Position numbers and translations under genes: made by a program. Shown here piece after piece: positions 15,674-32,676 of a stretch of DNA of 32,676 nt (position 1 is its first letter; each line of letters opens with the position of its first letter). Location of the stretch: NCBI GenBank assembly GCA_022842285.1, contig JALHPV010000047.1, positions 1 through 32,676 on the forward strand. Reading direction: 5' to 3'. Source of the stretch: Kofleriaceae bacterium (lineage in GTDB: Bacteria; Myxococcota_A; Polyangia; Haliangiales; Haliangiaceae). The notes beneath the pieces are model-generated. The model had not been told where the DNA came from. It was given only the letters and a program-made list of their open reading frames with translations, and did not search any database.

Positions 15674-17451
15674 GGAGTGACGCCGAACTTGCGGGCGATC
15701 CACTTGATGGCGGCGGTCAGCTTCAGCTTGTCGAGGAAGTCGTCGCGGCGGTCGCCGCCGAAGAACAGATCGACCTTGCGGAGGAAGGCGATGAAGGCGA
15801 TGGCGCGCTGGAGGCCGAGGGAGCGCAGGATGTGCGGCTTGCCGGCGGCGAAGCGCTGGGCGTCCCACGCCTTGAGCCAGGCGAACTGGGGCTCCTCGAG
15901 CGGCCAGACGTCGGCCTTGCGCGTGGTGGAGCCACTGCGCGTGAGGATCTCGTTGACGGCGCGCCGGCCGGCTTCGCAGGCGCCCTCCATCGAGGCGATG
16001 TTGGTGTTCGTGCGGACGTAGTCGGAGGCGAGGACGAGGTTCGGGATGGCGGTGCCCGCATCGGGCCGCAGGCCCCACGAGCCGGGCGGGTGGACGAGGA
16101 GGCGCGAGCTGTTGCCGATTGGACTCACCGTGAAGTCGAGATCGTCGTCGAGGTGCCAGGAGTGCAGGAGCTCGTCGGAGAGGACGGTGCCGCCCTCGCC
16201 GAGGCCGTTGAGGGCGGTCTTGAGCTGCATCCAGACTTCGTCCGCGATCTCGGTGGGCGTGCACTCCTTGGCCGTCTTCGGGTTGAAGGCGCCCGGCGTA
16301 TCCCACTCAGAGATGTCGACGGAGATCAGGCCGCCGACCGAGCCATCCCCGTAGATGCGGCGGAAGATGCCGAGGTCGCGCCAGAACTGGGGCTGGCTGA
16401 TCGCGGTGAGCGCCCACGGCGAGTCGGGGAAGAAGAGGTGGCCCTTCACGAGGGGCACGTCCTCGTAGAGGTAGTACTGGATGCCGACCATCCAGTTGAC
16501 GAGGTTGGCCGGGTCTTGCTGGCGCAGGGTGTCGAGCTTCGAGTCGAGCGCGCCCACCGCGGGCGAGAGGAGGCCGATGGCCGCGTCGAGTGGGACGGCG
16601 AGGACGTAGTAGTCGGCGGTGATCGTCGGACCACTCGCGAGGCGCACGCCGCTGATCTTGCCGGCGGCGACCTGGAGCTCGACGACGGGGTCGCCCTGGT
16701 GCATGACCGTGCCGCGCGACGTGAGGTAGTCCGTCCACGGCTGGATCCACATCCGCGTGGTCGGGCCGCCCATCGTGCGGTCGTTCTGTGCGCCCGCGAA
16801 CGCGAAGTCGCGCAGGAGCTGAAGCGTGATGACGCCGATGGTGTGGGCGGACCCGCGCTGCGAGTCCATCGCGACCATCATGCGCGGGATGCCGCGGAGC
16901 TGCTTCTGGAACTTCGGGGAGCAGCGGTCCGCCTCGAGGAACTCCCACCACGAGAGTTGTTCGTACTCGGCGAGGCGGCGAGCATCGCAGGCGGAGGCGA
17001 ACTCGGCGAGCTTCGCGGTGAAGATCGAGACGTCGTACTGATCGAAGTCGAGATCCTGGAAGAAGATCTCGAGCGACTCGAGGACGGCGTACGGCGTATC
17101 GAGGTGCTTGCGGTTGAAGCGATACCAGGTCGAGTCGTCGACCATCGCGATCGCGGCCTCGGTGGTCGGCTTCAGGTGGTCCGCGACGTAGCCCGTCCCC
17201 GTCCCCGACGGAATGCGCGCCATCGTGTCGATCACGTGGCGGTAGAACCGCGGATAGAAGCGAAAGCCATGCTCGCCCGGCAGGTCGGCCCGGCCGCCGG
17301 CTCCCGTGCCCACCACGGGCTGCGAGCGCGCCTTGCCCCCGAAGTCGGGCCGCGACTCGAAGACCTCGACCTCGAATCCTCGCTCGATCAACTCGTGCGC
17401 CGCGGTCAATCCGCCGACGCCTCCTCCGATCACGACTACGCGTGTGGCCAT
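15670..17451 (-). CDS. FAD-dependent amine-oxidase/phytoene-desaturase-like oxidoreductase
   Basis: 593 aa. The N-terminal Rossmann motif [17 protein letters not shown], with the acidic residue after the second strand (VEVFES), binds [20 protein letters not shown] is typical of the COG3349-type desaturases and hydroxysqualene dehydroxylase relatives. A C-terminal FAD-contact motif is visible ([19 protein letters not shown], then [11 protein letters not shown]). Likely a soluble or membrane-associated redox enzyme on an isoprenoid or other lipid, but the substrate cannot be told. ATG 17451 has a strong Shine-Dalgarno (GGAGGAG at 17459-17465). It overlaps the upstream kinase gene by 16 bp and the macro-domain gene by 4 bp. 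Confidence 0.88.
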
Positions 17452-20400
17452 CGCACTTCTCCTCCCGTGTTCCAGGTCAGGGCGGCGCCGAGGACGCCCG
17501 GGTTGATCACGCCGCCGCGCAGCGCGGTGATGGCGAGGCGGTCGATAGCGCCACCCGTGGCGCGGGCGGCGGACTCGGCGCGCTCGAGCGTCTTCGCGGC
17601 CGCGCGATCTTGCCCGAGGAAGGCCTCTGCTTGCCCCTGCATGCGGAGAGCCGTCGGCCCGTAGAACGAGGCGCCGCCGAGCCGGTGCAGACGCTTGGCC
17701 GTCCGCAGCACGCGCGCGGCCGCATCGCGATCACCATGCCGGGCGAGCCCCAGGTCCGCGGATGCGCTGGGCACGTCGACGATGGCGCGGACCGCCGGCA
17801 TCGCCGAGAGCCACTGCGTGCGAGCCGAGTTGGCGAGATCGTCGGCGGCGGCCCGGGCCCGGTTCCAGTCGTGCGCGGCGAGGGCGAGCTCGCAGCCAAA
17901 CACGCGGCGATAGATGCCGGCCATGCCGCGGTCGAATGCACTCGAGCGCTCCTGCTCGCGCCACGCTGCCCGCGCGCCGGCCAGATCACCGGCGTACAGC
18001 ATCGCGCGGCCACGGTACGAGCCGATCATCGCGCGGCCGAACAAGTCGTCGCTCGTGTCGTCGGCGAGGATGGCGAGCGTTGTCGTCGGCTCCCCCGCGT
18101 AGAGCTCGCCGAGCGCCCAGTAGCTCCGCAGAAACGACGCTTCCCAGGTCCGGCCCAGTCCAAGGCGGTTGCAGATCGTCTCCGCCTTGCCGTGCGCGCT
18201 TCGCATCGCGACCCAGTCGCCGCGAAGCATCGCCAAGATGCCGGTGCAGCCGGCGGCGACCATCTCGGCGTACGGTGCACCACACTGGGTCGCGAGTTGC
18301 TCGGCGTGCACGAGGGCGCGATCGCCGAACCGTCCGAGGGTCCCGGCGGCGAGGTAGGCGGCGAGCATCGACATGCCCTGACTCTGCGCGGCCCGATCCG
18401 CGGAGCGTTCGGCGAGGGCCACGCCCCGCAGCACGTACTCGAGCGCCTCGAGCGGATGCGGCGTCGACAGGAAGCTCGCGATCGCGCGGTAGGCGGCGGC
18501 CCGCACGTCGTCGATCGGCTCTGCGCGCCGGCCGAGCGGCACCAGCCACGTCGTGGCGACGGCGATCGCGCGCCCCAGTGACTGCACGCGCCCGCGGGCC
18601 CGCTTCTCGCCGCGGCGCCCGAGCACGTCGTCGAGCACCCGCAAGCCGCGCTCGATCTCGCCGAGCTTGAGATAGGCCTCGGCCGCCCGCACGCGATGCC
18701 GATCACCGTCGGCGGTCGCGTGTGCGAGGAGCAGATAGTCCTCGGCCGCCCCCGCGAGCTTGCCTCCGAGGAAGCGGGCATCCGCGCGCGCGAGGCGCAC
18801 CGCCCCCGCATCGGGCAGCAGGATGTCGTCGGTCCGGCCCGGCGTGTCCGCGCTGGTGATGAGGTCGAGGGCCATCGAGTACCAGTCGGCGGCGACGCTC
18901 CATGCGAGCTGCGCGCGGGCCGAATCGCCCGCGGCCACGGCCCACGGGGCGGCGCGCCCGGGTTCCCCCGCATCGCGCCAGTGGATCGCGACCTGTGCGG
19001 GCGAGCCGCCGGCCCCTTCGTAGTAGCGCGCGAAGCGCTGGTGCCGCTCGCGGCGGACGTCCTCGGCCATACCGGCCTGCGCGGCGGCGCGGAGGCGCTG
19101 GTGATAGAAGGCGTACACGGCATCGCCGGCGGCCGACGGCATCGCGCGTACGACGCGCGCATCTTCGAGGCCGCGCAGGGCCGACCGCACGCGACCCGCG
19201 GGCAAGCCCACCACGGCGCGGAGCTCGTCGAAGGACGCGGTGCCGCCCGTCGCGGCCACCTCGGCCACCGCGCGTTCGTCGCCGGCGAGGCGCGAGAGCC
19301 GGCGGTGCTCGGCGTCCGCGACCTCGGCGACATCGGCGGTCGCGAGCTCCGCCCCGATCAGCTCGGCGAGGTACGGGCTGCCCGCGGCGAGGCGCGCGGC
19401 TGCCAGCACGCGGAGGCGTGCGGCCCGCGGAGCCAGCTCGGCGATCATGTCGGCCAGCTCGACCTCTCCCATGGCCTCGAGCGGCACGATCGTCGTCGGC
19501 GGTAGCTTCTCGAGCAGCTCGGGCGGCAGCTCGCCGTCCGTGGTCCACGCGGCGATCACCGTCAGCGGACGCTCGATGCGCTCGACCATCATCTTCAGCA
19601 GCTCGAGGCTCTCGTCGTCGGCCCACTGCAGGTCATCGATCAGGATCGCCGCGCGCGCACTCTTCACGAGTGATCGCATCAGCTCGATGAGCGCGAGCAC
19701 GGCGCGCTCGCGCTCGACACGAAGGTCGCCGGCCGCCGGCTCGTCGTCGAGGGCGAGCGAGGGCGCCAGCACGGGGAACACCCGCGCGAGCGCACCGGCA
19801 TGCACGAGCGGCCGCGGATCTGCGGATAGCTCCATCGAGAGGTCATCGATGATCTGATCGAAGGCGCGGTACGGGACTCGCTCGCGCTCGTGACACCGGC
19901 CGCGCCAGGCGAGCATGCGACCGTCGATCGTCGCGCGGCCCAGCGCCTCGTCGACGAGCGCCGTCTTACCGACGCCCGACGGCCCCGTCACCAGCACGAA
20001 GCGCCCGTGCGACCGCTGATCGCCGAGCGCCGTCGCCAGCGTCTCGAGCTGGGCCTTGCGGCCGATGAAGCCCAGGGCCCGGCGCTGCTGGCTCGGCTGC
20101 GAGCGGTCGCCGGTGAGCTCCTGCACTACCTCGAGCGCGCTCGGTCGCAGCGCGGGGTCGGCGATGATCATGCGATCGATCAGCGCTCCGAGCTCCGGCG
20201 GCAGATCGGGATTCAAGGTGCAGGCGCCCGGCGCCGGGCCGCGTTTGTGCTGACGCGACAGCATGTGGATCGCACCCCCGAACGGCGGCGCACCCGTCAC
20301 GAGCTCGTAGCCCAGCACGCCGAGCGCGTACACGTCGAGGGCCGGCGTCACGGCCAGCGACTCGAGGTACTCGGGCGCGAGGTACGCGGCGGTGCCCACG

Positions 20401-21065
20401 ATGCGGCCCTCCGGCGCGAGCTCGCCATCGCGGCGCCGCTCCTCGAGGGCGAGGCCGAAGTCGAGGAGCTTCACCACGCTGCTGGCGATGAGCACGTTCG
20501 ACGGCTTCACGTCCCGATGGATCACCCCGCGGCCGTGCAGGAACGTCAGGCCCTCCGCGAGCTGCGCCAGCACCGACCGCACGCGCTCGAAGTCGACGGG
20601 GGGCGCGGCGCGGGCGATGATCGCATCGCTGCCCTCGATGAAGTCCGCGGGGACTTCGGTGCGCGCCTCCTGCAGCGGGGGCACGGTGCGCGTGGACTGC
20701 GCGGAGTCGTAGCCGCGGATCTCGCCGCTCCGCATGTCGTTGGCTTCGGTCCATCGGCGCGGATCGTGGCCGGGCAGGTACTCCATCGTGAAGAAGCACG
20801 AGCTGCCCATCGATCCGAGCTCGTACAGCTCGACCAGGTTGCGGTGGCGCAGCGAGGCCACCGCCCGGAACTCGCGCTTGAGCCAGAGCGTGGCATCGCC
20901 GTGGGGGGTGCCGACCAGCTTGAGCGCGACCTCCATGTCGAGGCGCTCGTCGTGGGCGAGGTACACGACGCCCATGCCGCCGCGTCCGAGCTCACGCACG
21001 ATGCGGTAGCGATCCGCGACGGCGCTTCCGACGCGCAACCGCTGCGCAGACGCACCCTCGATCAC
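17436..21065 (-). CDS. Ser/Thr protein kinase fused to AAA-type ATPase and TPR-like region
   Basis: 1209 aa from GTG 21065; upstream open frame would overlap the divergent TrmH-like gene. Kinase domain about 20-320: glycine loop GRGGMG (27-32), Lys49, catalytic HRDVKPSN (Asp185), DFG at 202-204, GTAAYLAPE. An insertion of about 45 residues (about 105-155) separates the hinge from the E helix. Next is an ATPase with Walker A GPSGVGKT (361-368) and Walker B-like ILIDDLQWADDE (about 473-485). The remaining ~700 residues are Ala/Arg-rich helices of TPR-like character. This resembles the large PknK/MalT-like kinases common in myxobacteria. No transmembrane segment, so cytoplasmic. Substrate unknown. 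Confidence 0.9.
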   Translation of the reverse strand: MIEGASAQRLRVGSAVADRYRIVRELGRGGMGVVYLAHDERLDMEVALKLVGTPHGDATLWLKREFRAVASLRHRNLVELYELGSMGSSCFFTMEYLPGHDPRRWTEANDMRSGEIRGYDSAQSTRTVPPLQEARTEVPADFIEGSDAIIARAAPPVDFERVRSVLAQLAEGLTFLHGRGVIHRDVKPSNVLIASSVVKLLDFGLALEERRRDGELAPEGRIVGTAAYLAPEYLESLAVTPALDVYALGVLGYELVTGAPPFGGAIHMLSRQHKRGPAPGACTLNPDLPPELGALIDRMIIADPALRPSALEVVQELTGDRSQPSQQRRALGFIGRKAQLETLATALGDQRSHGRFVLVTGPSGVGKTALVDEALGRATIDGRMLAWRGRCHERERVPYRAFDQIIDDLSMELSADPRPLVHAGALARVFPVLAPSLALDDEPAAGDLRVERERAVLALIELMRSLVKSARAAILIDDLQWADDESLELLKMMVERIERPLTVIAAWTTDGELPPELLEKLPPTTIVPLEAMGEVELADMIAELAPRAARLRVLAAARLAAGSPYLAELIGAELATADVAEVADAEHRRLSRLAGDERAVAEVAATGGTASFDELRAVVGLPAGRVRSALRGLEDARVVRAMPSAAGDAVYAFYHQRLRAAAQAGMAEDVRRERHQRFARYYEGAGGSPAQVAIHWRDAGEPGRAAPWAVAAGDSARAQLAWSVAADWYSMALDLITSADTPGRTDDILLPDAGAVRLARADARFLGGKLAGAAEDYLLLAHATADGDRHRVRAAEAYLKLGEIERGLRVLDDVLGRRGEKRARGRVQSLGRAIAVATTWLVPLGRRAEPIDDVRAAAYRAIASFLSTPHPLEALEYVLRGVALAERSADRAAQSQGMSMLAAYLAAGTLGRFGDRALVHAEQLATQCGAPYAEMVAAGCTGILAMLRGDWVAMRSAHGKAETICNRLGLGRTWEASFLRSYWALGELYAGEPTTTLAILADDTSDDLFGRAMIGSYRGRAMLYAGDLAGARAAWREQERSSAFDRGMAGIYRRVFGCELALAAHDWNRARAAADDLANSARTQWLSAMPAVRAIVDVPSASADLGLARHGDRDAAARVLRTAKRLHRLGGASFYGPTALRMQGQAEAFLGQDRAAAKTLERAESAARATGGAIDRLAITALRGGVINPGVLGAALTWNTGGEVRWPHA

Positions 21066-21081
21066 GTGGTGCCAAGGTATC

Positions 21082-21780
21082 GTGCCGAGCGTGCGCGATG
21101 CAATCGACCGCCTGATCGAGGCCCACGGGCCCGATGCCATCTGTGCGGCGCTGGAACCGATGCTGACTCCCGAGCGGATCGCCCGGATCGACGCCGTCCT
21201 CGCGGCGCGGCTGACCTCGGTGGTGACCGTCGTCGAGGACACCTACGATCCGCACAACGCCGCCGCCACGATCCGCACCACCGAGGCCTTCGGGCTCGGC
21301 GAGCTGCACGCCATCGAGCCGAATCAGCGCTTCGCGGCGGCGAAGGGGGTCACGCGGGGCTCGCACAAGTGGGTCGACATCCACCGCTGGAAGCGCGCCG
21401 AGGATGCCGTCGGTGCCCTCCACACCCGCGGCTTCAAGGTCTACGCCACCCTGCCGGGGGCGCCGTTTTCGATCGAGAACGTGGACGTCTCGACCCCCAT
21501 CGCGATCGCGTTCGGCAACGAGCATTCAGGGCTCACCCCCGAGGCCGTGCAGGCCTGCGATGGCGCCGTCGGCGTGCCCATGTTTGGCTTCTCGGAGAGC
21601 TTCAACCTGTCCGTGACCGTGGCCCTCGCCATGTCCCGCGTCGCGGCGCGGCGCCGGGCCCAGATCGGGGCCCCGGGCGATCTACCCGAAGCAGAGCGCC
21701 GGCGGCTTCGGGCCCGCTGGTTTGCCCTGAAGATTCGGGGGGCTGAGGGTGTTCTCGAGCGAGCATTCCCAGTCTCCTGA
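21082..21780 (+). CDS. TrmH-family (SpoU) RNA 2'-O-methyltransferase
   Basis: 232 aa from GTG 21082, with AAGG at about 21074-21077 as ribosome site. The SPOUT fold is clear: VVTVVEDTYDPHNAAATIRT near the start, then AIAFGNEHSGLT (motif 2) and SESFNLSVTVALAM (motif 3), the knotted SAM-binding region. The N-terminal extension (about 1-45) and the C-terminal helix resemble TrmH, which methylates Gm18 in tRNA, but rRNA methyltransferases of the family look similar. It starts only 16 bp from the divergent kinase gene. Confidence 0.92.
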   Translation: MPSVRDAIDRLIEAHGPDAICAALEPMLTPERIARIDAVLAARLTSVVTVVEDTYDPHNAAATIRTTEAFGLGELHAIEPNQRFAAAKGVTRGSHKWVDIHRWKRAEDAVGALHTRGFKVYATLPGAPFSIENVDVSTPIAIAFGNEHSGLTPEAVQACDGAVGVPMFGFSESFNLSVTVALAMSRVAARRRAQIGAPGDLPEAERRRLRARWFALKIRGAEGVLERAFPVS

Positions 21781-21901
21781 CGGACACGCCACGATGTGGC
21801 ATCGGGGACCCGATCGGGGGATATTCCGGGCGTGAGGCGGGTCCCGCGCGGTCCCGAGCTTGCAGAACCAACGCAGCATGTCGCAAGGGGCGCCACGATC
21901 C

Positions 21902-24358
21902 ATGGCCTACGGCTCACCGCCGCCGGTCGCTACGGCGCGACCCCAGAAGCCGGTGCCAGGGAAGCCGGGTAAGCCCGTCGGCAAGGGCAAGCGGCCGGTT
22001 CATCCCGACAAGCGCCCACGCAAGCTCTGGGTCCGCATCATCAAGTGGCTGTTCATCACGGGCCTGATCGGCATGGTCTGCCTGGTCGGCACCGTCGCCT
22101 TTATCTTCTGGATGTACGGGCGCGACCCCAATCTTCCGTCCGAGAAGTCGCTCGCGCAGTACAACCCGAAACAGGTCATCCGCGTCCTCGATGCCAACGA
22201 CCGCGAGGTCGGCGAGCTGTTCGGCCCCGACAAGCGCATCGAGCGCCGGACGTACGTACCGTACGAGAAGATCCCGCGACATGTTGTCGATTGCTTCGTG
22301 GCGGCGGAGGACAACCGCTTCTGGACCCACGGCGGCGTCGACTACTGGGGCATGTTCCGCGCGGCCCTGACGAACATCCGCAAGGGCAAGACGCACGGCG
22401 CCTCGACGATCACGCAGCAGGTGGTGAAGACCTTCCTGCTCACGCCCGAGAAGACCTTCAAGCGGAAGATTCAGGAGGTCATCATCGCGCGCCGGCTCGA
22501 GAAGACGCTGACGAAGGAGCAGATCATGAATCTGTACCTGAATCAGATCTACTTCGGGAACAACCGCTACGGCATCCAGGAAGCGTCGCACTTCTACTTC
22601 GGCAAGGACGTCGCGCAGCTCACGGTGGGGGAGGCCGCCGTCCTCGCCGCGCTCCCGCAGCGCCCCGAGGAGCTCGCGCCGAACAAGCCGAAGAACCAGT
22701 CGGCGGCCAAGGCCCGCCAGATCTACGTGCTGAACCAGATGGTCTCCATGGGGAAGCTCACGCCCGCCGAGGCGCAGAAGTGGATCGACGCGCCCATCCA
22801 GGTCGTGAAGGCCGCCGACGTGAAGAACGAAGCGTCGTCGGAGTGGATCGGTCTCGCGCGTGACGCGCTCGTCGCTGACTTGCTCACGCAGGGCAAGACC
22901 GAGGACGCGCTGAACACGCTCGGTGGCACCGTTCGTACGTCGCTCGACCCGGGCATCCAGGAAGCGGCGCAGCGGGCGCTGCAGAAGGGCCTCCGGGCCG
23001 TCGACAAGCGCCACGAGATCGGGCGTCCGCAGCGCTCGGTGAAGGACGTCAAGGCGGAGATCGCGAAGCTGGCGAAGAAGTTCCCCGGCAAGCTCGTCGG
23101 GATGGATCGCTACGAGGCGGTCGTGACGGCGGTCCACGACAACGACCACGAGCTCGTCGTCGATGCGGGCAACTACCCCGCGTCGATCATGCTCGATGAC
23201 GACGTCGACCTTCGCTTCAACCCGCCCGACGACGCCGGCGTGAAGAAGCAGCCGAGCGAGCGCTTCAAGCCAGGTGACGTCGTCGCGATCGCGGCCGCCA
23301 TCGGCCTGCCGCCCCTCAAGCACTCGCCGAATCGCGTGCAGTTCGCGCCGGGGCCGCAGGGCGCCGTCGTCGTCATCGACGTGAAGACGCGCCGCGTGAA
23401 GGCCCTCGTCGGTGGCTTCCAGACGCGCATCGGCGGCCTCGACCGCGCCACCCAGTCCCGGCGCCAGCCAGGCAGCTCCTTCAAGCCGTTCGTCTACGGT
23501 GCCGGCATCGACAGCCTGCAGTTCACCGCCGGCTCGAAGGTGAACGATGCGCCTGACGCCTACGACGCCTGGCGCCCCAAGAACTACGACAGCAAGTTCG
23601 CTGGCCCGCTGCTCCTCCGCTACGCGCTCTCGAAGTCGATCAACACGATCGCGATCCGGGTCACGGCCATCGTGAAGCCCGAGAACGTGGCCGCCTTTGC
23701 CAAGGCCCTCGGCATCCGCAGCGAGCTCACCCCCGACATGTCGATCTCCCTCGGCTCCAAGGAGGTCACGCCGCTCGAGATGACCAACGCGATCGCCAGC
23801 ATCGCCGCCGGTGGCCAGTACGCACCGCCGCGCTTCATCGAGGCCATCAACGGCAAGCCCGTGCCGGTCGTCCCCGCCGAGCGCGTGATGCGCCCCGACG
23901 CCGCGTGGATCCTCACCAGCATGATGACCTCCGTCGTCACGAGTGGTACCGGTCATCTCGCGAAGTCGGTCGGCGTCCCCATCGCCGGCAAGACCGGCAC
24001 GTCCAACGACGCGCGTGACACCTGGTTCGTGGGCTTCACCCCCGACGTCGCGATCGGGGTCTGGATCGGCTACGACGAGCCGCGCGCGATGGGCAAGGAG
24101 ACCGGCGGCACGACCGCTGTCCCCGTCTTCGTCGATGTCGCCAAGGCGATGAACCTTCCCGCGAAGCAGTTCCCGCGGCCCCCCGGCATCGTCGAGCGCA
24201 AGATCGACAAGCTCACGGGCCTCCTCGCGCCCGAGGGCGCGGCCGCCGATTCCTACGTCAACGAGTACTTCATCGAGGGCACCGCGCCCCTCGAAATCGC
24301 GCCGCTGCCCGACGAGACGACGTCATCGAACGTCTTCGAGAACGAGTACAACGACTAG
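21902..24358 (+). CDS. Class A penicillin-binding protein (PBP1A-like)
   Basis: 818 aa from ATG 21902, chosen for the AAGGGG about 11 nt upstream; TTG 21860 and ATG 21878 are alternatives. A basic Pro/Lys-rich cytoplasmic tail precedes one transmembrane segment (about 47-70). The GT51 domain has Glu136 in AAEDNRFWTHGG, then GASTITQQ and KEQIMNLYLNQIYFG. The transpeptidase has SSFK (Ser525-Lys528), SIN (579-581) and KTGT (697-700). It makes glycan strands and crosslinks their peptides on the periplasmic side. It starts a packed run that leads through sensor genes to dapA and dapB. Confidence 0.96.
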   Translation: MAYGSPPPVATARPQKPVPGKPGKPVGKGKRPVHPDKRPRKLWVRIIKWLFITGLIGMVCLVGTVAFIFWMYGRDPNLPSEKSLAQYNPKQVIRVLDANDREVGELFGPDKRIERRTYVPYEKIPRHVVDCFVAAEDNRFWTHGGVDYWGMFRAALTNIRKGKTHGASTITQQVVKTFLLTPEKTFKRKIQEVIIARRLEKTLTKEQIMNLYLNQIYFGNNRYGIQEASHFYFGKDVAQLTVGEAAVLAALPQRPEELAPNKPKNQSAAKARQIYVLNQMVSMGKLTPAEAQKWIDAPIQVVKAADVKNEASSEWIGLARDALVADLLTQGKTEDALNTLGGTVRTSLDPGIQEAAQRALQKGLRAVDKRHEIGRPQRSVKDVKAEIAKLAKKFPGKLVGMDRYEAVVTAVHDNDHELVVDAGNYPASIMLDDDVDLRFNPPDDAGVKKQPSERFKPGDVVAIAAAIGLPPLKHSPNRVQFAPGPQGAVVVIDVKTRRVKALVGGFQTRIGGLDRATQSRRQPGSSFKPFVYGAGIDSLQFTAGSKVNDAPDAYDAWRPKNYDSKFAGPLLLRYALSKSINTIAIRVTAIVKPENVAAFAKALGIRSELTPDMSISLGSKEVTPLEMTNAIASIAAGGQYAPPRFIEAINGKPVPVVPAERVMRPDAAWILTSMMTSVVTSGTGHLAKSVGVPIAGKTGTSNDARDTWFVGFTPDVAIGVWIGYDEPRAMGKETGGTTAVPVFVDVAKAMNLPAKQFPRPPGIVERKIDKLTGLLAPEGAAADSYVNEYFIEGTAPLEIAPLPDETTSSNVFENEYND

Positions 24359-24360
24359 CT

Positions 24361-25344
24361 ATGCGTCGTGGCCTGTCGATCGTGGCCGCGCTCACCCTGG
24401 GCGCGACGCTCGTCCGCGCCGACGACGGCGCCCCGTTCACGCAGCGCCTCGTCGATGATCTGCGCGCGCGCGTCGCCGAGCTCGTCGCGGCGAAGGTCCC
24501 GCCGATCGTGCCGCCGACCCCGATCGCCGTGTCGTGGAAGGCGGTGAAGCTCGGCTCCCTCGAGCTCGGCGCCCCCCTCCTCGCGACCTCCGCCGCTGAC
24601 ATCGACGGCGACGGCCACGACGAGCTCTTCGCCATCACCTCCGAGATGGTCATCGCGATCAGCCTCACGGGCCCGAAGCCCACCGAGGTGGGGCGCGTGG
24701 CTTTCACCGGTCCGCGCGCCGTCCCCGCGCCCCGCCAGCCGATCGGTACCGCCTTCATCGAGGCCGGCGAGCTCGTCGCGGCCGCGTCCCCGTGGGCAAC
24801 CGAGCTCCGCATCACCTGGCCCGGCGGCAAGCTCACCGGTCGGGCCGGCTCCCCCGGCTTCGGCGTCTGCGCCGGCGAGCGCCTCTCGCTCGTGCCCGGT
24901 CGCAACTACTTCGCCCCCGACCTTCTCGCCGTCCGCTGCCGGACCGACCTCGTCGACAAGGACGGAGCCGCCCTCCACCTGCGTGCGCAGCTCGCCGGCA
25001 AGCACAAGCTCGCCGTCACCTCCGAGCTGTGCCGCGGCGCGACCTGTGAACCCACCGTCCGCTTCGACATCGGCACCGCCGGCGCCGCCTTCGCCCTCTC
25101 CGACGTCGATCGCAACGGCACCCCGGAGGTGATCATCTCCGGCGCGGGCGCTCCCGGCGATGCGGACGCGGTGAAGGTCATCGCCTTCGGCGGCGACATC
25201 AAGAAGGGACTCTTCCGCAAGACCTTCACCGGCGGCGTCGCGGCGATCGAGGTCGTCTCGCGCGGTCCAGAGCATGCGGCCCGCATTGTCGCCGCCGTCC
25301 GGCTGTCCGGTGCCACGCGCGTCGACCTCTGGAGACTCAATTGA
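24361..25344 (+). CDS. Secreted FG-GAP/VCBS-like protein
   Basis: 327 aa. The signal peptide covers about 1-20 (MRRGLSIVAALTLGATLVRA), then DDG. Two loops look like calcium-binding Asp-x-Asp-x-Asp repeats of the FG-GAP/VCBS type: SAADIDGDGHDELFAITSEM (about 79-98) and LSDVDRNGTPEVIISGAG (about 243-260). Between them are beta strands suited to a propeller-like fold. Starts 2 bp after the PBP1A stop and overlaps the next gene by TTGA. Secreted, role unknown; the position suggests a wall-related function. Confidence 0.8.
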   Translation: MRRGLSIVAALTLGATLVRADDGAPFTQRLVDDLRARVAELVAAKVPPIVPPTPIAVSWKAVKLGSLELGAPLLATSAADIDGDGHDELFAITSEMVIAISLTGPKPTEVGRVAFTGPRAVPAPRQPIGTAFIEAGELVAAASPWATELRITWPGGKLTGRAGSPGFGVCAGERLSLVPGRNYFAPDLLAVRCRTDLVDKDGAALHLRAQLAGKHKLAVTSELCRGATCEPTVRFDIGTAGAAFALSDVDRNGTPEVIISGAGAPGDADAVKVIAFGGDIKKGLFRKTFTGGVAAIEVVSRGPEHAARIVAAVRLSGATRVDLWRLN

Positions 25345-26870
25345 TTCGCGACGCTGGAAAAGGGCCAGGCCCATTCAAGAAGAAGGGGCCAGGCCCATGG
25401 CAGCTCGTCGCGTTCGCCGCGGTCGCGACGCTGGTGTCCGGGCCTGTCCGGGCCGAGACGCGGCCGGTGTACGGCGGGTCGATCGAGGCGTCGCTGCTCG
25501 GGGCGCCCGGGACGTTCGATCCGGTGGCGGCACAGACGCACGCCGAGTCGATGCTGGCGGAGCTGGTGTTCGATGGGCTGTATCGGGTGGGGCCGGCGGG
25601 GACGGTACAGCCGCACCTGGCCGAGGCGATGCCGGTGCTCGATGCAGCGGGGACGACGGCGCGGATCGCGATCCGGGTGGGCGTGACGTTCCACGACGGG
25701 ACGGTGCTGGCGGCGAGTGACGTCGCGGCGTCGCTGGAGCGGCTGCGCGGCACGTGGGTGCTGGCGGCGGTGAAGAGCGTACGGGCGGATGGAGATGCGG
25801 TGGAGCTCGCGCTGAAGGCACCGACGGCGAATCTCACGACGCTCCTGGCGTTGCCGCAGGCGGCGATCACGCGGCGCGGGGTGGCCCCGGGGGAGGCGCC
25901 CGTGGGGACCGGGGCGTTCCGCGTCACGAAGGTCGACCGCGCGAATCGGAAGATCACGCTCGCGGCGTTCGAGGAGCACTTCGCGGGGCGGCCGTATCTC
26001 GATGCGCTCGCGCTGCGCTGGTACGACACGCCGGACGGCGAGGCGCGGCAGTTCGAGACCGGTGCGGCGCAGCTGTCGGCGCGCGGCGTGGCGGCGTTCA
26101 CCGGATCGCAGCCGAAGTACCGGGCGCGCGATGTGGAAGGGCCCGGGAGCGTGCTCGCATACGTGGGGTTCTCGCGGAAGCATCCCGATGTGCTCGGCGA
26201 GCCGGCGTTTCGGCGCGCACTCGATCTCGCGATCGCGCGCGGCGCCCTGACGGCGGTGTCGTCGGGAGAGCGGATCACGCCGGTCCGGTTGCCCGTGCCG
26301 CTCGAGGCGGGCGGCGCGGGCGTGCAGAAGCAGGCGGGCAACGGCGAGCTGGCTGCGGCCCAGACGGCACTGGCGGAGGCGGCGATGCGCGTGCCGGCGC
26401 TGGTGGCGTCGAAGTTGCCGGCGCTGTCGCTCGAGATCCTCGTCGACGAGACGCGGCCCGACGACAAGGAGATCGGGGAGCGGGTGCTGCGCGCCCTCGA
26501 CAAGCTCGGCATCGCCGCGACCGTGCGTGCGACGAGCGCCACCGCGATGCGGGATGCGGTCGCGAAGGGCACCACCGACCTCTACATCGGTCAGCTCGCG
26601 GCCCCGGCCACGACGAGCTGGGTGTGGTGGGCGGAAGCCTTCACCGCGGGCGGCAGCGACTGGGCGAAGCGAGAGCTGGCGAGCGGCTCGCTGTCGACGA
26701 CGTCCGCCCAGAAGGAGTTCGCCGCGAAGCTGCCCATCGTGCCGCTCATGTTCCGTGGCGTGCGGCTGTGGCATCGCACGGACATCCGCGGCGTCGCGTT
26801 CGATGCGTCGGGACTGCCGTGCTTCGCGGACATGTTCCTGTTCGGCTCGCCGTCGAGGTCGACCAAGTGA
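25341..26870 (+). CDS. Family-5 (peptide-type) ABC solute-binding protein
   Basis: 509 aa from TTG 25341. The mature protein is the SBP_bac_5 type (RPVYGGSIEASLLGAPGTFD, LAELVFDGLYRVGPAGTVQP, VTFHDGTVLAASDVAASLER, PVGTGAFRV), a family that binds oligopeptides, murein peptides, nickel or sugars. The first 20 residues contain KGPGPFKK and KKGPGPW, encoded by two copies of a dispersed GGGCCAGGCCC word, before the hydrophobic LVAFAAVATLVSG and a VRA cleavage site. No permease or ATPase gene lies nearby. The TGA stop overlaps the GTG of the sensor kinase (GTGA). Confidence 0.88.
   Translation: MIRDAGKGPGPFKKKGPGPWQLVAFAAVATLVSGPVRAETRPVYGGSIEASLLGAPGTFDPVAAQTHAESMLAELVFDGLYRVGPAGTVQPHLAEAMPVLDAAGTTARIAIRVGVTFHDGTVLAASDVAASLERLRGTWVLAAVKSVRADGDAVELALKAPTANLTTLLALPQAAITRRGVAPGEAPVGTGAFRVTKVDRANRKITLAAFEEHFAGRPYLDALALRWYDTPDGEARQFETGAAQLSARGVAAFTGSQPKYRARDVEGPGSVLAYVGFSRKHPDVLGEPAFRRALDLAIARGALTAVSSGERITPVRLPVPLEAGGAGVQKQAGNGELAAAQTALAEAAMRVPALVASKLPALSLEILVDETRPDDKEIGERVLRALDKLGIAATVRATSATAMRDAVAKGTTDLYIGQLAAPATTSWVWWAEAFTAGGSDWAKRELASGSLSTTSAQKEFAAKLPIVPLMFRGVRLWHRTDIRGVAFDASGLPCFADMFLFGSPSRSTK
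25362..25396. repeat. Two GGGCCAGGCCC palindromic words inside the signal-peptide region
   Basis: Copies at 25362-25372 and 25386-25396 are 24 nt apart, exactly eight codons, so both read in frame as KGPGP. The same word is at 15087-15097 outside any gene. This looks like a dispersed element absorbed into the 5' end of a gene. Confidence 0.65.
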
Positions 26871-28597
26871 AGCTGCGCGGTCGCTTCACGGTCACGCTCG
26901 CCCTCGCCGCGCTCGTGCCGATCGTCATCGCCGCCGTCATCACCCGGCAGGTGATCGCCGCGAGCTACACTGACGAGTACCGGGAGACGCGACGCAGCGT
27001 CGAGCAGTCGATGCTGCGCGAGGTCGCGCGCCTCTCGTCGCAGGTGCACGCAGCCGTGGCCTCCCTCGCGAGTCCCGACCATCCGTTCGTCGGTGGGCTC
27101 TTGCGCGAGCTCGTGAAGGGCACGCTCGACGCGCCGACCGAGCGGCGGTTGCGAGAGCAGGGCGGACCCGTCATGCGCGGCCTCTCGCTGCAGCTCCTCA
27201 CCCTCACGGATCCGAGCGACCGCGTGATGGTCTCGCCGCACAACCGCGCCGAGGTCGGTGAGCCCAACCCCGTGGTACGGCAGCGCGCGGAGAGGACCAA
27301 GGGCGAGACGTACTTCGTCCGCGAGAAGATCACGCGCGGTCCCACCGTCGAGACGGTCCTCGTCGCCCAGGCCGCGCAGCTCTCGCGCGATGGTCGCTTC
27401 GTGGTCGCCCTCTGGGCCGGCCGGACCATCGACAACGAGCTCCTCACCACCGTGCGGCGCGAGGGTCGCATCGACGCCCGGATCGTGGCCGCCAACGGCG
27501 ACGTGCTGCAGCCCTCCGTCGCGCCGAACTGGGGCGACCTCTCGGCAGATCCGCCGATCCGGATCCCGCTGGCGGGCCCCGACGGGGTGCCCATCGCCTT
27601 CATCGAGGTCGCGGTCTCCGACAACAACCTCGCCGGCGTGCTCCGCGAGGTCACGTACATCTCCGCCGGCCTCGCCGTCGGGGCGCTCGCGCTCGTCGTG
27701 CTCGCCGGGGTCTTCGTCGCCCGCCGCATCGCGCGTGACCTCGACGCCCTCGTCGAAGGCTCGCTGCACGCGGCGCGCGGGGACCTCGACTACCGCGTCC
27801 CCGTTCGCGGCCAGGACGAGATCGGGGCCGTCGCCTCCGCCTTCAACTTCATGATGGAGGACCTCCGCACGTCGAAGGATCGCCTGGTCATCGCCGAGCG
27901 CATCGCTGCTTGGCAAGAGATCGCGCGTCGTCTCGCCCACGAGATCAAGAATCCGCTCACGCCCATCCAGATGGCGATGGACACCCTCCGCAAGGTCTGG
28001 AAGAAGCAGCACCCGCAGTTCGGCGAGATCCTCGAGGAGTCGACGGAGACGGTCCTCGAGGAGGCCGATCGCCTGAAGCGCATCGTGAGCGAGTTCTCCG
28101 ACTTCGCCCGCATGCCCAAGCCCGAGCTGCAGCGCGTGGACCTGAACGACGTCGTCAAGTCGGTCACCGGCCTCTACCAGGGCGCGATCCGCGTCGAGAC
28201 CAAGCTCGCCAAGATCCCCGACATCGACGCCGACAAGGGCCAGATCAACCAGGTCGTCCTGAACCTTGTGGAGAACGCCCGCGATGCCATCGGCGAGCGC
28301 TCGGACGGCAAGATCACCGTCCAGACGAAGCTCGGCGACGCCGGCGACCGGGCGGTGCTCATTGTCGACGACAACGGCCCGGGCGTCCCCACCGAGCTCA
28401 AGGACAAGATCTTCGCCCCGTACTTCTCGACGAAGCTCAACAAGGGCGGCACCGGCCTTGGCCTCGCCATCGTCCACCGCATCGTCTCGGACCACGGCGG
28501 CCGCATCCAGATCACCGATGCCCTCGGCGGAGGCGCCCGCTTCCTGATCGAGCTGCCGCTGCGCAACGCCACGTCGCTACTCGCCTCGCGAATCTGA
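26867..28597 (+). CDS. NtrY-like membrane sensor histidine kinase
   Basis: 576 aa from GTG 26867, overlapping the preceding stop (GTGA). A transmembrane segment (about 8-26), a periplasmic sensor domain (about 30-262), a second transmembrane segment (about 264-285), HAMP (about 286-337), then HisKA with phosphoacceptor His358 (RRLAHEIKNPLTPIQMA). The ATPase has the N box LNLVENARDAIGE, DDNGPGVP, and GTGLGLAIVHRIVSDHGG. The periplasmic domain has no clear Cache-fold match that I can name. No response regulator follows in the window, so its partner lies elsewhere. Coupling to a solute-binding protein suggests the latter delivers the ligand signal. Confidence 0.93.
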   Translation: MKLRGRFTVTLALAALVPIVIAAVITRQVIAASYTDEYRETRRSVEQSMLREVARLSSQVHAAVASLASPDHPFVGGLLRELVKGTLDAPTERRLREQGGPVMRGLSLQLLTLTDPSDRVMVSPHNRAEVGEPNPVVRQRAERTKGETYFVREKITRGPTVETVLVAQAAQLSRDGRFVVALWAGRTIDNELLTTVRREGRIDARIVAANGDVLQPSVAPNWGDLSADPPIRIPLAGPDGVPIAFIEVAVSDNNLAGVLREVTYISAGLAVGALALVVLAGVFVARRIARDLDALVEGSLHAARGDLDYRVPVRGQDEIGAVASAFNFMMEDLRTSKDRLVIAERIAAWQEIARRLAHEIKNPLTPIQMAMDTLRKVWKKQHPQFGEILEESTETVLEEADRLKRIVSEFSDFARMPKPELQRVDLNDVVKSVTGLYQGAIRVETKLAKIPDIDADKGQINQVVLNLVENARDAIGERSDGKITVQTKLGDAGDRAVLIVDDNGPGVPTELKDKIFAPYFSTKLNKGGTGLGLAIVHRIVSDHGGRIQITDALGGGARFLIELPLRNATSLLASRI

Positions 28598-28613
28598 TAC
28601 AGAGGAACCCGCC

Positions 28614-29552
28614 ATGAAGCCCGGAACGATCGATCCCACCGCGTCGCCATCCGGCGCCGCTTCGCCGGCAGCCCGCCACCGGCTCGAGGGCTGCCTCACT
28701 GCAATCGTCACCCCGTTCCGCGACGGCAAGGTCGACTTCGACAAGCTCGCGCAGCTGGTCGACTGGCAGATCGACCAAGGCATCGACGGCATCGTCGCCG
28801 TGGGCACCACCGGCGAGTCGGCGACCCTCGACGTCGAGGAGCATGTCGCCGTCATCGCCGCTGTCGTCAAGGCGGCGAAGGGGCGGGTCCCCGTGGTTGC
28901 CGGCGCGGGCGGCAACGCGACGACAGAGGCCCTGGAGTTGACCAAGGCCTCCGAGCAGGCCGGCGCCGATGCGCTCCTGCACGTCACGCCTTACTACAAC
29001 CGGCCCTCGCAGGAGGGGTTGTTCCGCCACTTCGAGGCCATCGCGAAGTCGACGAAGCTCCCCATCATTCTCTACAACGTGCCCACGCGCACCGCGTGTG
29101 ACCTCTCGACCGATGTCGTCGTGCGCCTCGCCGACTTCCCGAACGTCGTCGGCATCAAGGATGCGACGGGCAACCTCGTGCGCGGCTCGGACCTCGTCGC
29201 GCGCGTGGGCGATCGCATGGCCGTCCTCTCCGGCGATGACGGCACCGCGTTCCCGCTCTACGCCGTGGGGGGCCGCGGCGTCATCTCCGTCGTCTCCAAC
29301 GTCGCTCCGCGCGCCATGAGTGACATGTGGGACGCTGCCGCCGCCGGTGACTGGGAGCGCGCCCGCAAGCGCCACCACGAGCTCCGCGTCCTCTCGGCGA
29401 TGCTCTTCAACGAGCCGAGCCCCGCGCCCACCAAGGCCGCGCTCGCGCTCATGAACCGCTGCTCGACGGAGCTTCGCCTGCCCCTCGTCCCGGCGTCGGC
29501 GGGCCTCACCGACCAGCTCCGCGCCGAGCTCAAGACCCTGGGCCTCTTGTGA
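28614..29552 (+). CDS. dapA: 4-hydroxy-tetrahydrodipicolinate synthase
   Basis: 312 aa, about 20 residues longer than usual because of an N-terminal Pro/Ser/Ala extension. ATG 28614 has GAGGA at 28602-28606. It condenses pyruvate and aspartate semialdehyde, the first step to meso-diaminopimelate and lysine. Catalytic Lys182 (GIKDATG) forms the Schiff base; Tyr154 (IILYNVPTRT) and the GTTGES loop (64-69) are present. It lies 16 bp after the kinase gene and its stop overlaps dapB. Confidence 0.96.
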   Translation: MKPGTIDPTASPSGAASPAARHRLEGCLTAIVTPFRDGKVDFDKLAQLVDWQIDQGIDGIVAVGTTGESATLDVEEHVAVIAAVVKAAKGRVPVVAGAGGNATTEALELTKASEQAGADALLHVTPYYNRPSQEGLFRHFEAIAKSTKLPIILYNVPTRTACDLSTDVVVRLADFPNVVGIKDATGNLVRGSDLVARVGDRMAVLSGDDGTAFPLYAVGGRGVISVVSNVAPRAMSDMWDAAAAGDWERARKRHHELRVLSAMLFNEPSPAPTKAALALMNRCSTELRLPLVPASAGLTDQLRAELKTLGLL

Positions 29553-30277
29553 CCCGCGTCTGCGTCCTCGGCCCCTCCGGCCGCATGGGCAAGGCCGTCA
29601 TCGAGGCCGCGACCGCGACCAACCTGACCATCAGCGCGCGCGTCGACCTCGGCGACGACATGGCCGCTGGCCTCGCCGCCAGCGACGTCTACATCGACTT
29701 CACGACCCCCGTCGCCACGCGCGCTGCCGCGGCGCTCGCCTTCACCCGCAAGCTGCCCGCCGTCGTCGGCACCACCGGCCTCGGCCCCGACGACGAGAAG
29801 GCTCTCGCCGCCCTCGCCGAGGTCGCGCCGATCGTCGTCGCCGCCAACTTCTCCCTCGGCGTGAACCTCCTGCTGGGCCTCGCCCGCCAAGCGGCTCGCA
29901 TCCTCGGCCCCGACTGGGACGCCGAGGTCGTCGAGACCCACCACAAGAACAAGCGCGATGCTCCGTCGGGCACCGCGCTCGCGATCGCCCGCGCCATCGC
30001 CGCCGGTCACGGCTCCGACTACGACACCGTGAAGCGCCACACCCGCGACGGCGACGTCGGCCCGCGCCCCCGCGGCGAGATCGGCGTGTCGACGGTCCGC
30101 GGCGGCGACGTCATCGGCGAGCACACCGCCACGTTCTTCGGCGCCGCCGAGCGCATCGAGCTCTCGCACCGCGCGACCTCTCGCACGATCTTTGCCGCCG
30201 GCGCCCTCCGCGCCGCCGCCTGGGTCGTCACGCAGCCGCCCGGCCGCTACGACATGCAGGCCGTCCTCGGCCTGTAG
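29549..30277 (+). CDS. dapB: 4-hydroxy-tetrahydrodipicolinate reductase
   Basis: 242 aa from GTG 29549 (overlaps the dapA stop, GTGA). The nucleotide motif GPSGRMG (8-14) binds NAD(P)H. The substrate motif is ETHHKNKRDAPSGTA (129-143), with His131 and Lys135 at the positions of E. coli His159 and Lys163. It reduces the dapA product in the diaminopimelate pathway. Full length, no missing key residue. Last gene of the run starting at 21902. Confidence 0.96.
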   Translation: MTRVCVLGPSGRMGKAVIEAATATNLTISARVDLGDDMAAGLAASDVYIDFTTPVATRAAAALAFTRKLPAVVGTTGLGPDDEKALAALAEVAPIVVAANFSLGVNLLLGLARQAARILGPDWDAEVVETHHKNKRDAPSGTALAIARAIAAGHGSDYDTVKRHTRDGDVGPRPRGEIGVSTVRGGDVIGEHTATFFGAAERIELSHRATSRTIFAAGALRAAAWVVTQPPGRYDMQAVLGL

Positions 30278-30824: not shown

Positions 30825-31115
30825 CTAGGGATAGTCGAGCTCGCGTTGGTGGCGGATGGCCAGGATTCGAACCTCCTGGCGCACCGGCAAGAATCGGTAG
30901 AGGGCCACGTACCCCGTTCGTCCGTACGAGATGACGAGCTCTCGGACCTGCCCGGTCACGAGCCGCCCGACCAGTGGGTGATGAGCCAGCATGCTGACGG
31001 CCGATTCGATCGCCTGGACCGCCGCAAGCGCTGCTGCAGGAGCCTCGGCCGCGAGGAACTGACACGAGCGTTCGAGGTGCGCCAGGGCGGCTCGCGAATA
31101 GACTATGCGCGCCAC
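30825..31115 (-). CDS. RelE/ParE-family toxin
   Basis: 96 aa from GTG 31115; GTG 31163 upstream is an alternative. The sequence ARIVYSRAALAHLERSCQFL, then HHPLVGRLVTGQVRELVISY and VALYRFLPVRQEVRILAIRH follows the ParE/RelE pattern: an N-terminal helix pair, a P-x-x-G-R turn, and a C-terminal beta sheet ending in R-H-x-R. ParE toxins act on DNA gyrase and RelE toxins cleave mRNA on the ribosome; I lean to ParE. The start lies within the end of the antitoxin gene (13-bp overlap), as usual for these modules. Confidence 0.88.
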   Translation of the reverse strand: MARIVYSRAALAHLERSCQFLAAEAPAAALAAVQAIESAVSMLAHHPLVGRLVTGQVRELVISYGRTGYVALYRFLPVRQEVRILAIRHQRELDYP

Positions 31116-31390
31116 GGCTTGGGCCGCGCAGATTTCTCGCCGCTGGCCAGCCTCTTGAGCCACGCGTGCACATCATCGGCGCTGTACACGGCCGCGCCCT
31201 CCTCGATCTCGCGATCAGCATCCACCGCCTCCTGGACGAAGGCCGCCATGGCTTCGTCGCGCTGGACCTGACGTTCGAGCGCATCGACCATGACTGCGTG
31301 TGGAGCCCGCCCACTGCGCTTGGCCAGCTTCGCGATCCGTGCCTTGAGCGCCGTCGGTAGCTTCAAGGTCGTCGATGTCGTCTTCGACAT
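31103..31390 (-). CDS. Ribbon-helix-helix antitoxin
   Basis: 95 aa from ATG 31390. The N-terminus STTLKLPTALKARIAKLAKR, then SGRAPHAVMVDALERQV is a CopG/MetJ-type ribbon-helix-helix that binds DNA as a dimer. The C-terminal part (DADREIEEGAAVYSADDVHA) is the toxin-neutralising arm of the ParD/RHH type. It overlaps the ParE-like toxin gene and lies upstream in the operon, so it should repress its own promoter. Confidence 0.88.
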   Translation of the reverse strand: MSKTTSTTLKLPTALKARIAKLAKRSGRAPHAVMVDALERQVQRDEAMAAFVQEAVDADREIEEGAAVYSADDVHAWLKRLASGEKSARPKPWRA

Positions 31391-31410
31391 GGTGTTACCA
31401 GAGTACCACC
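31391..31410. promoter_or_regulatory. Candidate operator of the toxin-antitoxin operon
   Basis: Imperfect palindrome GGTGTTAC-CAGA-GTACCACC directly before the antitoxin ATG (7 of 8 positions match). This is where an RHH antitoxin would bind to autorepress. On the minus strand TACTCT within it could be a weak -10 box. Next to it is the perfect palindrome CCGCCGCGGCGG at 31410-31421. No binding data; sequence only. Confidence 0.5.
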
Positions 31411-31520
31411 CGCCGCGGCGGCGACCACTGAAAGCCGCATGAGTCCCGGGCACGGCGGGGCATCCTTGCTTGGCTCGTAGCGCGCCAGATTCACGGCGCC
31501 GCCCGTGGCAGAGTCGACCG

Positions 31521-32676
31521 ATGCGGTTGCGGCTCTGGTTTCTGATCCTCCTGCTGGTCGCGTGTGGCCCCAAGGGCCCGCCGAGTCCAGCCCCGGCGCC
31601 GAAGCCGCCGACCACGACGATCGCCGACGTACCGCCCGAAGGCAGCGACGACCTGTTGCCGCTGTGGCCCGCGATCAAGCACGGCACGCTGCCGAACGGG
31701 CTCCAGTACTATGTGATGAAGCACGGCGAGCCGAAGGGGCGCGCGATGATGTGGCTGGCCGTCGATGCGGGCGCCATCCAGGAGGATGACGACCAGCGCG
31801 GGCTCGCGCACTTCACCGAGCACATGGCGTTCAACGGGACGAAGCGGTTCCCGAAGCATCAGCTCGTCGACTACCTCGAGAAGATCGGGATGGACTTCGG
31901 GGCGGATCTGAACGCGTACACGAGCTTCGACGAGACCGTGTATCAGCTGACGGTCCCGACCGACGACAAGCAGTACCTGGACAAGGCGTTCGAGATCCTG
32001 CGCGACTGGGCGGGTGACATCTCGTTCGAACCTGGTGAATTCGAGAAGGAGCGCGGCGTGGTGCTCGAGGAGTGGCGGCTGGGGAAGGGCGTGGGTGACC
32101 GCATCTACCAGAAGGAGATGCCGGTGCTGCTGCCGGGGACGCGGTATCCGCTGCGGGAGGCGATCGGGCTGCCCGAGACGCTGAAGGGTGCGCCGCGCGA
32201 TGCCATTGTCCGATTCTACCGGGACTGGTACCGGCCCGATCTGATGGCGGTGTTCGTCGTCGGGGACTTCGCCGACGAGGCCGCCATGGTCGAGCAGGTG
32301 AAGGCCACGTTCGGCGATCTCGCCAATCCCGCGAAGCCGCGCGCGCGGACGTCCGGCGGGTTTCCCGCGGAGACGGAGACGCGGGTGTCGCTCGTCACGG
32401 ACAAGGAGCTGTCGCAACCGACGGTGACGGTGAGCAACCTCGTGCCTCATCGGCCCAAGGCGTCGGGCCGCGACTTCCGCCGCATGGTGCTCGAGGTGCT
32501 CTACAGCGACATCCTCAACGACCGCCTCGCGTCGATCGGGCGAACGGCGACGGCGCCCTTCACCGGAGCGGGGGTGTCCGTCGACGAGTACGTGCGCGGC
32601 ATCGATGCGTTCACGCGGGCGGCCTACCCGAAGCCGGGCAAGCTCGAGGAGGCGCTGCAGGCCGTCTTGCTGGAGG
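31521..32676 (+). CDS. M16-family zinc metalloprotease lipoprotein, N-terminal part (cut by window edge)
   Basis: 385 codons are visible from ATG 31521, with no stop before the end of the window. The signal sequence MRLRLWFLILLLVAC ends in a lipobox with Cys15, so it is probably anchored in the outer or inner membrane. The HxxEH zinc site is His97-Phe-Thr-Glu100-His101 in GLAHFTEHMAF, and the distal Glu177 lies in FEKERGVVLEEW at the M16/pitrilysin spacing. The first M16 peptidase domain is visible; a second would be expected downstream. A Pro-rich linker (about 20-35) separates lipid anchor and domain. It is divergent from the toxin-antitoxin operon. Confidence 0.9.
   Translation, partial: MRLRLWFLILLLVACGPKGPPSPAPAPKPPTTTIADVPPEGSDDLLPLWPAIKHGTLPNGLQYYVMKHGEPKGRAMMWLAVDAGAIQEDDDQRGLAHFTEHMAFNGTKRFPKHQLVDYLEKIGMDFGADLNAYTSFDETVYQLTVPTDDKQYLDKAFEILRDWAGDISFEPGEFEKERGVVLEEWRLGKGVGDRIYQKEMPVLLPGTRYPLREAIGLPETLKGAPRDAIVRFYRDWYRPDLMAVFVVGDFADEAAMVEQVKATFGDLANPAKPRARTSGGFPAETETRVSLVTDKELSQPTVTVSNLVPHRPKASGRDFRRMVLEVLYSDILNDRLASIGRTATAPFTGAGVSVDEYVRGIDAFTRAAYPKPGKLEEALQAVLLE

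Follow-up and report, generated by a model that had tools for sequence, protein, structure and literature searches.

A conserved gene block linking a solute-binding protein and a sensor kinase to PBP1A in Myxococcota: a candidate periplasmic sensing operon

Six closely packed genes

What might be the common purpose of a penicillin-binding protein, a secreted protein, a solute-binding protein, a sensor kinase and two enzymes of diaminopimelate synthesis, when their genes follow one another on a single strand with hardly a base between them? The original prediction saw here an operon in which the binding protein reports wall peptides to the kinase, matching the supply of precursor with wall synthesis. 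The window, by which we mean the whole stretch of 32 676 nucleotides from a Kofleriaceae bacterium that was analysed, does carry six co-directional genes (21902–30277, plus strand), and their coordinates bear out the packing first described. The series opens with a PBP1A-family class A penicillin-binding protein, comprising glycosyltransferase and transpeptidase domains (21902..24358). A gap of 2 bp leads to a secreted FG-GAP-like protein with DxDxDG-type loops (24361..25344), the stop of which overlaps, as TTGA, the start of a predicted periplasmic solute-binding protein of family 5, cluster C, endowed with a signal peptide (SBP5; 25341..26870; PF00496, 1.9e-37). A GTGA overlap joins the latter to a transmembrane sensor histidine kinase (26867..28597). 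Then, after 16 bp, come dapA (28614..29552; TIGR00674, 343.5 bits for a cut-off of 206.15) and, through another GTGA overlap, dapB (29549..30277; TIGR00036, 222.9 bits for a cut-off of 122).

The identity of the first gene is well defined. Its GT51 and transpeptidase regions score above the curated cut-off (TIGR02074, 546.8 bits against 508.75), and the catalytic residues E136, S525/K528, S579/N581 and K697-T-G-T700 vary little or not at all among 13 orthologs; translation might also begin at 21860 or 21878. The FG-GAP protein (327 residues) has a weak but real match to its family (PF01839, 1e-5). Upstream, a trmH-like gene for an RNA methyltransferase of the SpoU type (21082..21780, plus strand; PF00588, 1.3e-28) ends 121 bp before the PBP1A gene. 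In a dense genome, tight packing by itself is little proof of anything, and matches in a promoter and terminator scan of the locus were no more frequent than in shuffled sequences. The evidence that goes beyond chance is gene order conserved in relatives, and, as we shall see, it covers the genes from PBP1A to the kinase only, not dapA and dapB.

Gene order among relatives

Orthologs of the kinase, matched over the sensor domain as well, were collected from 25 near relatives and further across the phylum, with protein identities to that of the window going down to 34%, and their surroundings were surveyed with profiles. The SBP gene sits beside the kinase in 14/14 testable genomes of the same genus and 10/10 from the family's other genera (24/24 for the family), and in 23/35 from other families; for the FG-GAP gene at the kinase locus the corresponding values are 13/13, 10/10 and 23/33, and for PBP1A beside the module 11/11, 8/8 (19/19 for the family) and 19/30, it being understood that loci were chosen by similarity to the SBP or the kinase, a choice that gives the advantage to loci holding these genes, so that beyond the family the proportions carry some bias. 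The junctions themselves are retained: about −20 to +20 bp between PBP1A and FG-GAP genes in all 17 measurable relatives, a possible overlap of FG-GAP and SBP genes in nearly all those measured, and a possible overlap of exactly 4 bp between SBP and kinase in 16 of 23. Judging from sequence comparison, PBP1A–FG-GAP–SBP5–kinase is a real unit, its order kept across much of Myxococcota. We infer that it is co-transcribed.

Exceptions are instructive. At four loci (L053, L166, L170 and L172) PBP1A is directly followed by the kinase, with 79–303 bp between the matches, and the SBP and FG-GAP genes are both absent. Their joint absence suggests that the two form a sub-module, and the kinase, abutting PBP1A there, can do without both. 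The FG-GAP protein, whose orthologs occupy the same position in relatives, would probably be an accessory part of the assembly that the SBP and the kinase form in the periplasm. A tentative possibility is that the sensor follows some product of peptidoglycan synthesis or turnover other than one tied to diaminopimelate supply, or the status of PBP1A itself, and adjusts wall synthesis in return. The four loci where PBP1A adjoins the kinase speak for this, as does the presence, in several other genera and families, of a second glycosyltransferase gene upstream of trmH, in which an AsmA/DUF748-like N-terminal part is fused to a GT51 domain (L044:1748-3970; L048:1838-3967; L055:15360-17744, minus strand; L107:88-1851; similar genes in L052 and L123). 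This gene is absent upstream of trmH in the window. Against such wall surveillance, the SBP and the kinase are found without PBP1A beside them in f18, f22 and L073, and the case of trmH illustrates that a gene need not be related to its neighbours to stay in the block.

Indeed, trmH was used as a control for mere synteny. It lies upstream of the cluster in 10/11 genomes of the genus, 7/8 of other genera of the family (17/19 testable family genomes) and 12/24 of other families, hence in 29/43 testable loci overall, and is probably a conserved upstream neighbour with a function unrelated to the rest. It has no evident connection with signalling and keeps its position almost as well as the others do, which tells us that order alone could be inherited: the block might be a slowly eroding ancestral arrangement of genes deprived of functional coupling. 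We find this quite unlikely, in that the flanks on both sides, a protein kinase gene and dapA, do not persist from one genus to the next as the block does, and the trmH/PBP1A junction lacks the overlaps that are retained from PBP1A to the kinase. The flanking gene on the trmH side (17436–21242, minus strand), divergent from trmH, codes for a Ser/Thr kinase of 1268 residues with an AAA_16 ATPase domain, and is kept there within the genus only.

The diaminopimelate genes

The picture changes downstream of the kinase. Within 5 kb of it, dapA is found in 9/12 genomes of the same genus, in 0/8 from the family's other genera and in 0/30 from other families (0/38 outside the genus). It comes directly behind the kinase in 3/12 testable genomes of the genus, those of the window, G002 and G006; the remaining loci of the genus have 1.0–3.4 kb of non-conserved genes in between, some of them on the opposite strand. 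As for dapB, it has a single match in the genome of the window and is located elsewhere in other genera. This tally makes the unit extend from PBP1A to the kinase, with dapA and dapB as neighbours: they are housekeeping genes which happen to be downstream in part of the genus, and their membership of the operon must be rejected, their position behind the kinase not being conserved. The expectation of a gene order common to related genomes thus held from PBP1A to the kinase and failed for the pair that was to provide the ‘supply’ half of the scheme.

Just downstream of dapB, on the minus strand, there is a gene for a ParE-type toxin (30825–31163; PF05016, 1.5e-12) with an overlapping upstream frame (31103–31687), the later part of which resembles a ribbon-helix-helix antitoxin, with no Pfam match. 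The two may possibly form a toxin–antitoxin pair.

The sensor kinase

The kinase is made of a dCache-like sensor domain (residues about 30–255) followed by HAMP (283–334), HisKA (350–416) and HATPase_c domains, with no receiver, as had been noticed at the outset. Its H-box histidine and its N and G boxes are intact: H358, N466, N470, D502, G504, G506, G528, G530 and G532 are invariant in 25 orthologs. It had also been described as NtrY-like. It does share with NtrY the general make-up of a transmembrane HAMP–HisKA kinase, but HAMP ends at 334 and HisKA starts at 350, and the 15 residues in between cannot accommodate a PAS domain, while neither NtrX nor ntrBC adjoins the gene; the NtrY assignment must therefore be abandoned. 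No response regulator is adjacent in the window, and no conserved one lies downstream in relatives. A neighbouring response regulator is common for HisKA kinases, yet it is not required, and orphans exist.

A model of the sensor domain (pLDDT 90.6) matches those of DctB (Z 13.2), KinD (12.8) and LuxQ (12.3), with Z values of 12–13 over 184–203 residues; single-PAS CitA domains equal these dCache matches in Z, over a shorter stretch. The model thus depicts a periplasmic domain of the dCache type. LuxQ is of particular relevance: its signal comes from a solute-binding protein, so that we count a LuxQ-like fold in favour of a couple between the SBP and the kinase, the two genes being adjacent and the sensor domain being predicted to be periplasmic.

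The solute-binding protein and its ligand site

Membership of family 5 is clear for the SBP (PF00496, 129.7 bits for a cut-off of 32.4). Its AlphaFold model (pLDDT 90.7) aligned with 50 structures of cluster C proteins at Z 27.9–33.9, the best value being obtained over 438 residues; among them were AapF (33.9), AppA (32.2), MppA (31.4) and DppE (31.3). The modelled fold, however well it fits, gives no ligand identity. No lipobox was seen in the signal peptide. In its coding region (25341–25400) we noticed two copies of GGGCCAGGCCCAT, resulting in an odd KGPGPFKKKGPGPW that was not seen in orthologs. That the GGGCCAGGCCC repeat might be a dispersed element was considered and rejected: the exact 12-mer occurs three times in the genome, and so does a control pattern.

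The original idea was that this protein reports wall peptides, some family-5 proteins being binders of murein tripeptide that contains diaminopimelate. MppA and DppE, which bind this tripeptide, have the same cluster C fold, with 15–16% identity to the protein of the window. MppA, moreover, is likewise encoded outside any transport operon, and its Asp439 holds the free amino group of the peptide (PMC6022919). This anchor, equivalent to D419 in OppA and D408 in DppA, is missing in the SBP of the window; in 21 of 21 orthologs no Asp is present in the aligned stretch, which mostly reads ..GQLA.P.., usually with Gln418 and, in 4/21, with Glu421. The aligned position moves by a few residues among alignments, which does not affect the conclusion. 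In contrast, another SBP5 of the same genome retains a GD.GDPD motif at the anchor site. The missing residue argues against the classical mode of peptide binding, as far as sequence can tell, while a peptide might be held otherwise; murein tripeptide recognition is weakened accordingly. The full scheme, where diaminopimelate-containing wall peptides, reported by the SBP to the kinase, would match dapA/dapB supply to PBP1A activity, becomes very improbable, even though the linkage of PBP1A, SBP5 and kinase is genuine, murein-tripeptide proteins share the fold and dapA does follow the kinase by 16 bp in the window.

Could the SBP, then, belong to an ordinary importer, using a permease in trans as MppA uses Opp, with its place beside the kinase being a matter of history? 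For four SBP5 genes, the genome of the window has a single OppB-type permease. No permease gene is present at the locus, in keeping with the initial description, while that OppB-type gene lies on another contig (G000:C99) with no SBP found within ~10 kb around it, a finding which half undercuts the notion of a binding protein devoid of a transporter and is what an importer would ask for; the cluster C fold is also common to transport proteins. We nevertheless consider this reading unlikely: adjacency to the kinase and 4-bp overlaps are widely kept, no permease gene was seen joining them, and the SBP co-varies with the sensor domain (see below). An argument from cluster-bearing genomes without a permease was dropped, since G017 and G035, where PF19300 had no match, revealed permeases upon a direct OppB query.

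A second locus of the same genome deserves mention. At L189 (G000:C255, 4714–10213, minus strand), an SBP_bac_5 gene, a HAMP–GAF–HATPase kinase gene and a gene for a REC–GGDEF protein are closely packed in this order, and it is this SBP5 that retains the GD.GDPD motif. The arrangement suggests a peptide-type input with a c-di-GMP output, and that the pairing of SBP5 with a kinase is in use in this lineage.

Co-variation of the binding protein with the sensor domain

Pairwise distances were compared in a mirror-tree approach, after removal of the contribution of the kinase core, PBP1A and trmH. The SBP co-varies with the sensor domain in 26 genomes (partial r 0.51, 0/2000 permutations) as well as in 11 close genomes (partial r 0.62, p 0.001), which counts in favour of the proposed couple. 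Its co-variation with FG-GAP is weaker (r 0.23, p 0.0085), and FG-GAP and the sensor domain do not co-vary among the 26 genomes (r 0.08, p 0.27), which counts against it. An r of 0.31 was found between the SBP and PBP1A, so that the signal between SBP and sensor is the strongest, yet not exclusive. That PBP1A does not co-vary with the module, as the run on 11 genomes suggested, is unsupported by that on 26.

Precedents

The AI-2 receptor of Vibrio, LuxP–LuxQ, resembles the present couple in that a periplasmic SBP is encoded together with a kinase bearing a tandem-PAS/dCache sensor; LuxP, however, comes from a different SBP family, LuxQ, being a hybrid kinase, carries a receiver, and neither a PBP nor an FG-GAP gene is involved. 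In the chitin-sensing system of Vibrio, an SBP of the peptide family, CBP, controls an orphan sensor kinase, ChiS, with no linked response regulator (PMC5519180), much as the gene layout would have it here, and a chitin-oligosaccharide SBP (1zty) is among the PDB matches of our SBP profile. CBP, however, works for an ABC transporter of its own as well, ChiS is a DNA-binding hybrid kinase, and there is no PBP1A. By analogy, both may be taken as working precedents for an SBP–kinase couple (PMC5519180, PMC11113362). AapF of Pseudomonas, a HEHEAA-binding SBP and our best structural match (19% identity), binds a signalling molecule, but it has a different genomic context and its lead in Z over other cluster C proteins is small. 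MppA, for its part, has no known kinase partner. As a rule, the two genes are next to each other, as in 10/11 characterized SBP–kinase couples, while AgtS and AruS belong to neighbouring SBP/kinase pairs without interaction (PMC11113362). A search of the available literature brought up no account of a system in Myxococcota that combines a PBP, an SBP and a kinase.

A proposed periplasmic sensing operon

Taken together, we propose, with a probability of about 0.6, that the four genes from PBP1A to the kinase make up an operon for periplasmic sensing, where an SBP–sensor-kinase couple is linked to a class A PBP. The SBP, exported to the periplasm, would bind a ligand and, loaded or empty, dock on the kinase at its dCache-type sensor domain. 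This contact would set the balance between kinase and phosphatase activities at H358, and the phosphoryl group would pass to a response regulator encoded elsewhere. An operon shared with PBP1A would tie production of the sensor to that of the class A PBP, which makes an envelope-related output the most likely; PBP1A is the gene that would provide the link with wall synthesis. What subsists of the first reading is the conserved, overlapping order of PBP1A, a kinase and an SBP with no permease at the locus, so that a role in sensing the wall is possible; it has lost its dap supply, and its wall-peptide signal is weakened. A more ambitious proposal, that of an undescribed wall-surveillance system, widespread in Myxococcota, in which a non-transport SBP5 and the FG-GAP protein would present a cue derived from the wall or from PBP1A to a dCache kinase co-transcribed with PBP1A, seems doubtful to us.

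Setting dap supply aside matters in practice, because that reading would have misdirected experiments. Few bacterial sensor kinases have a known signal, and few have a genetic tie to a class A PBP. The natural series of loci with and without the SBP and FG-GAP genes hints at which parts are core, and a conserved operon joining a kinase and a class A PBP across many families of Myxococcota makes a defined, testable candidate.
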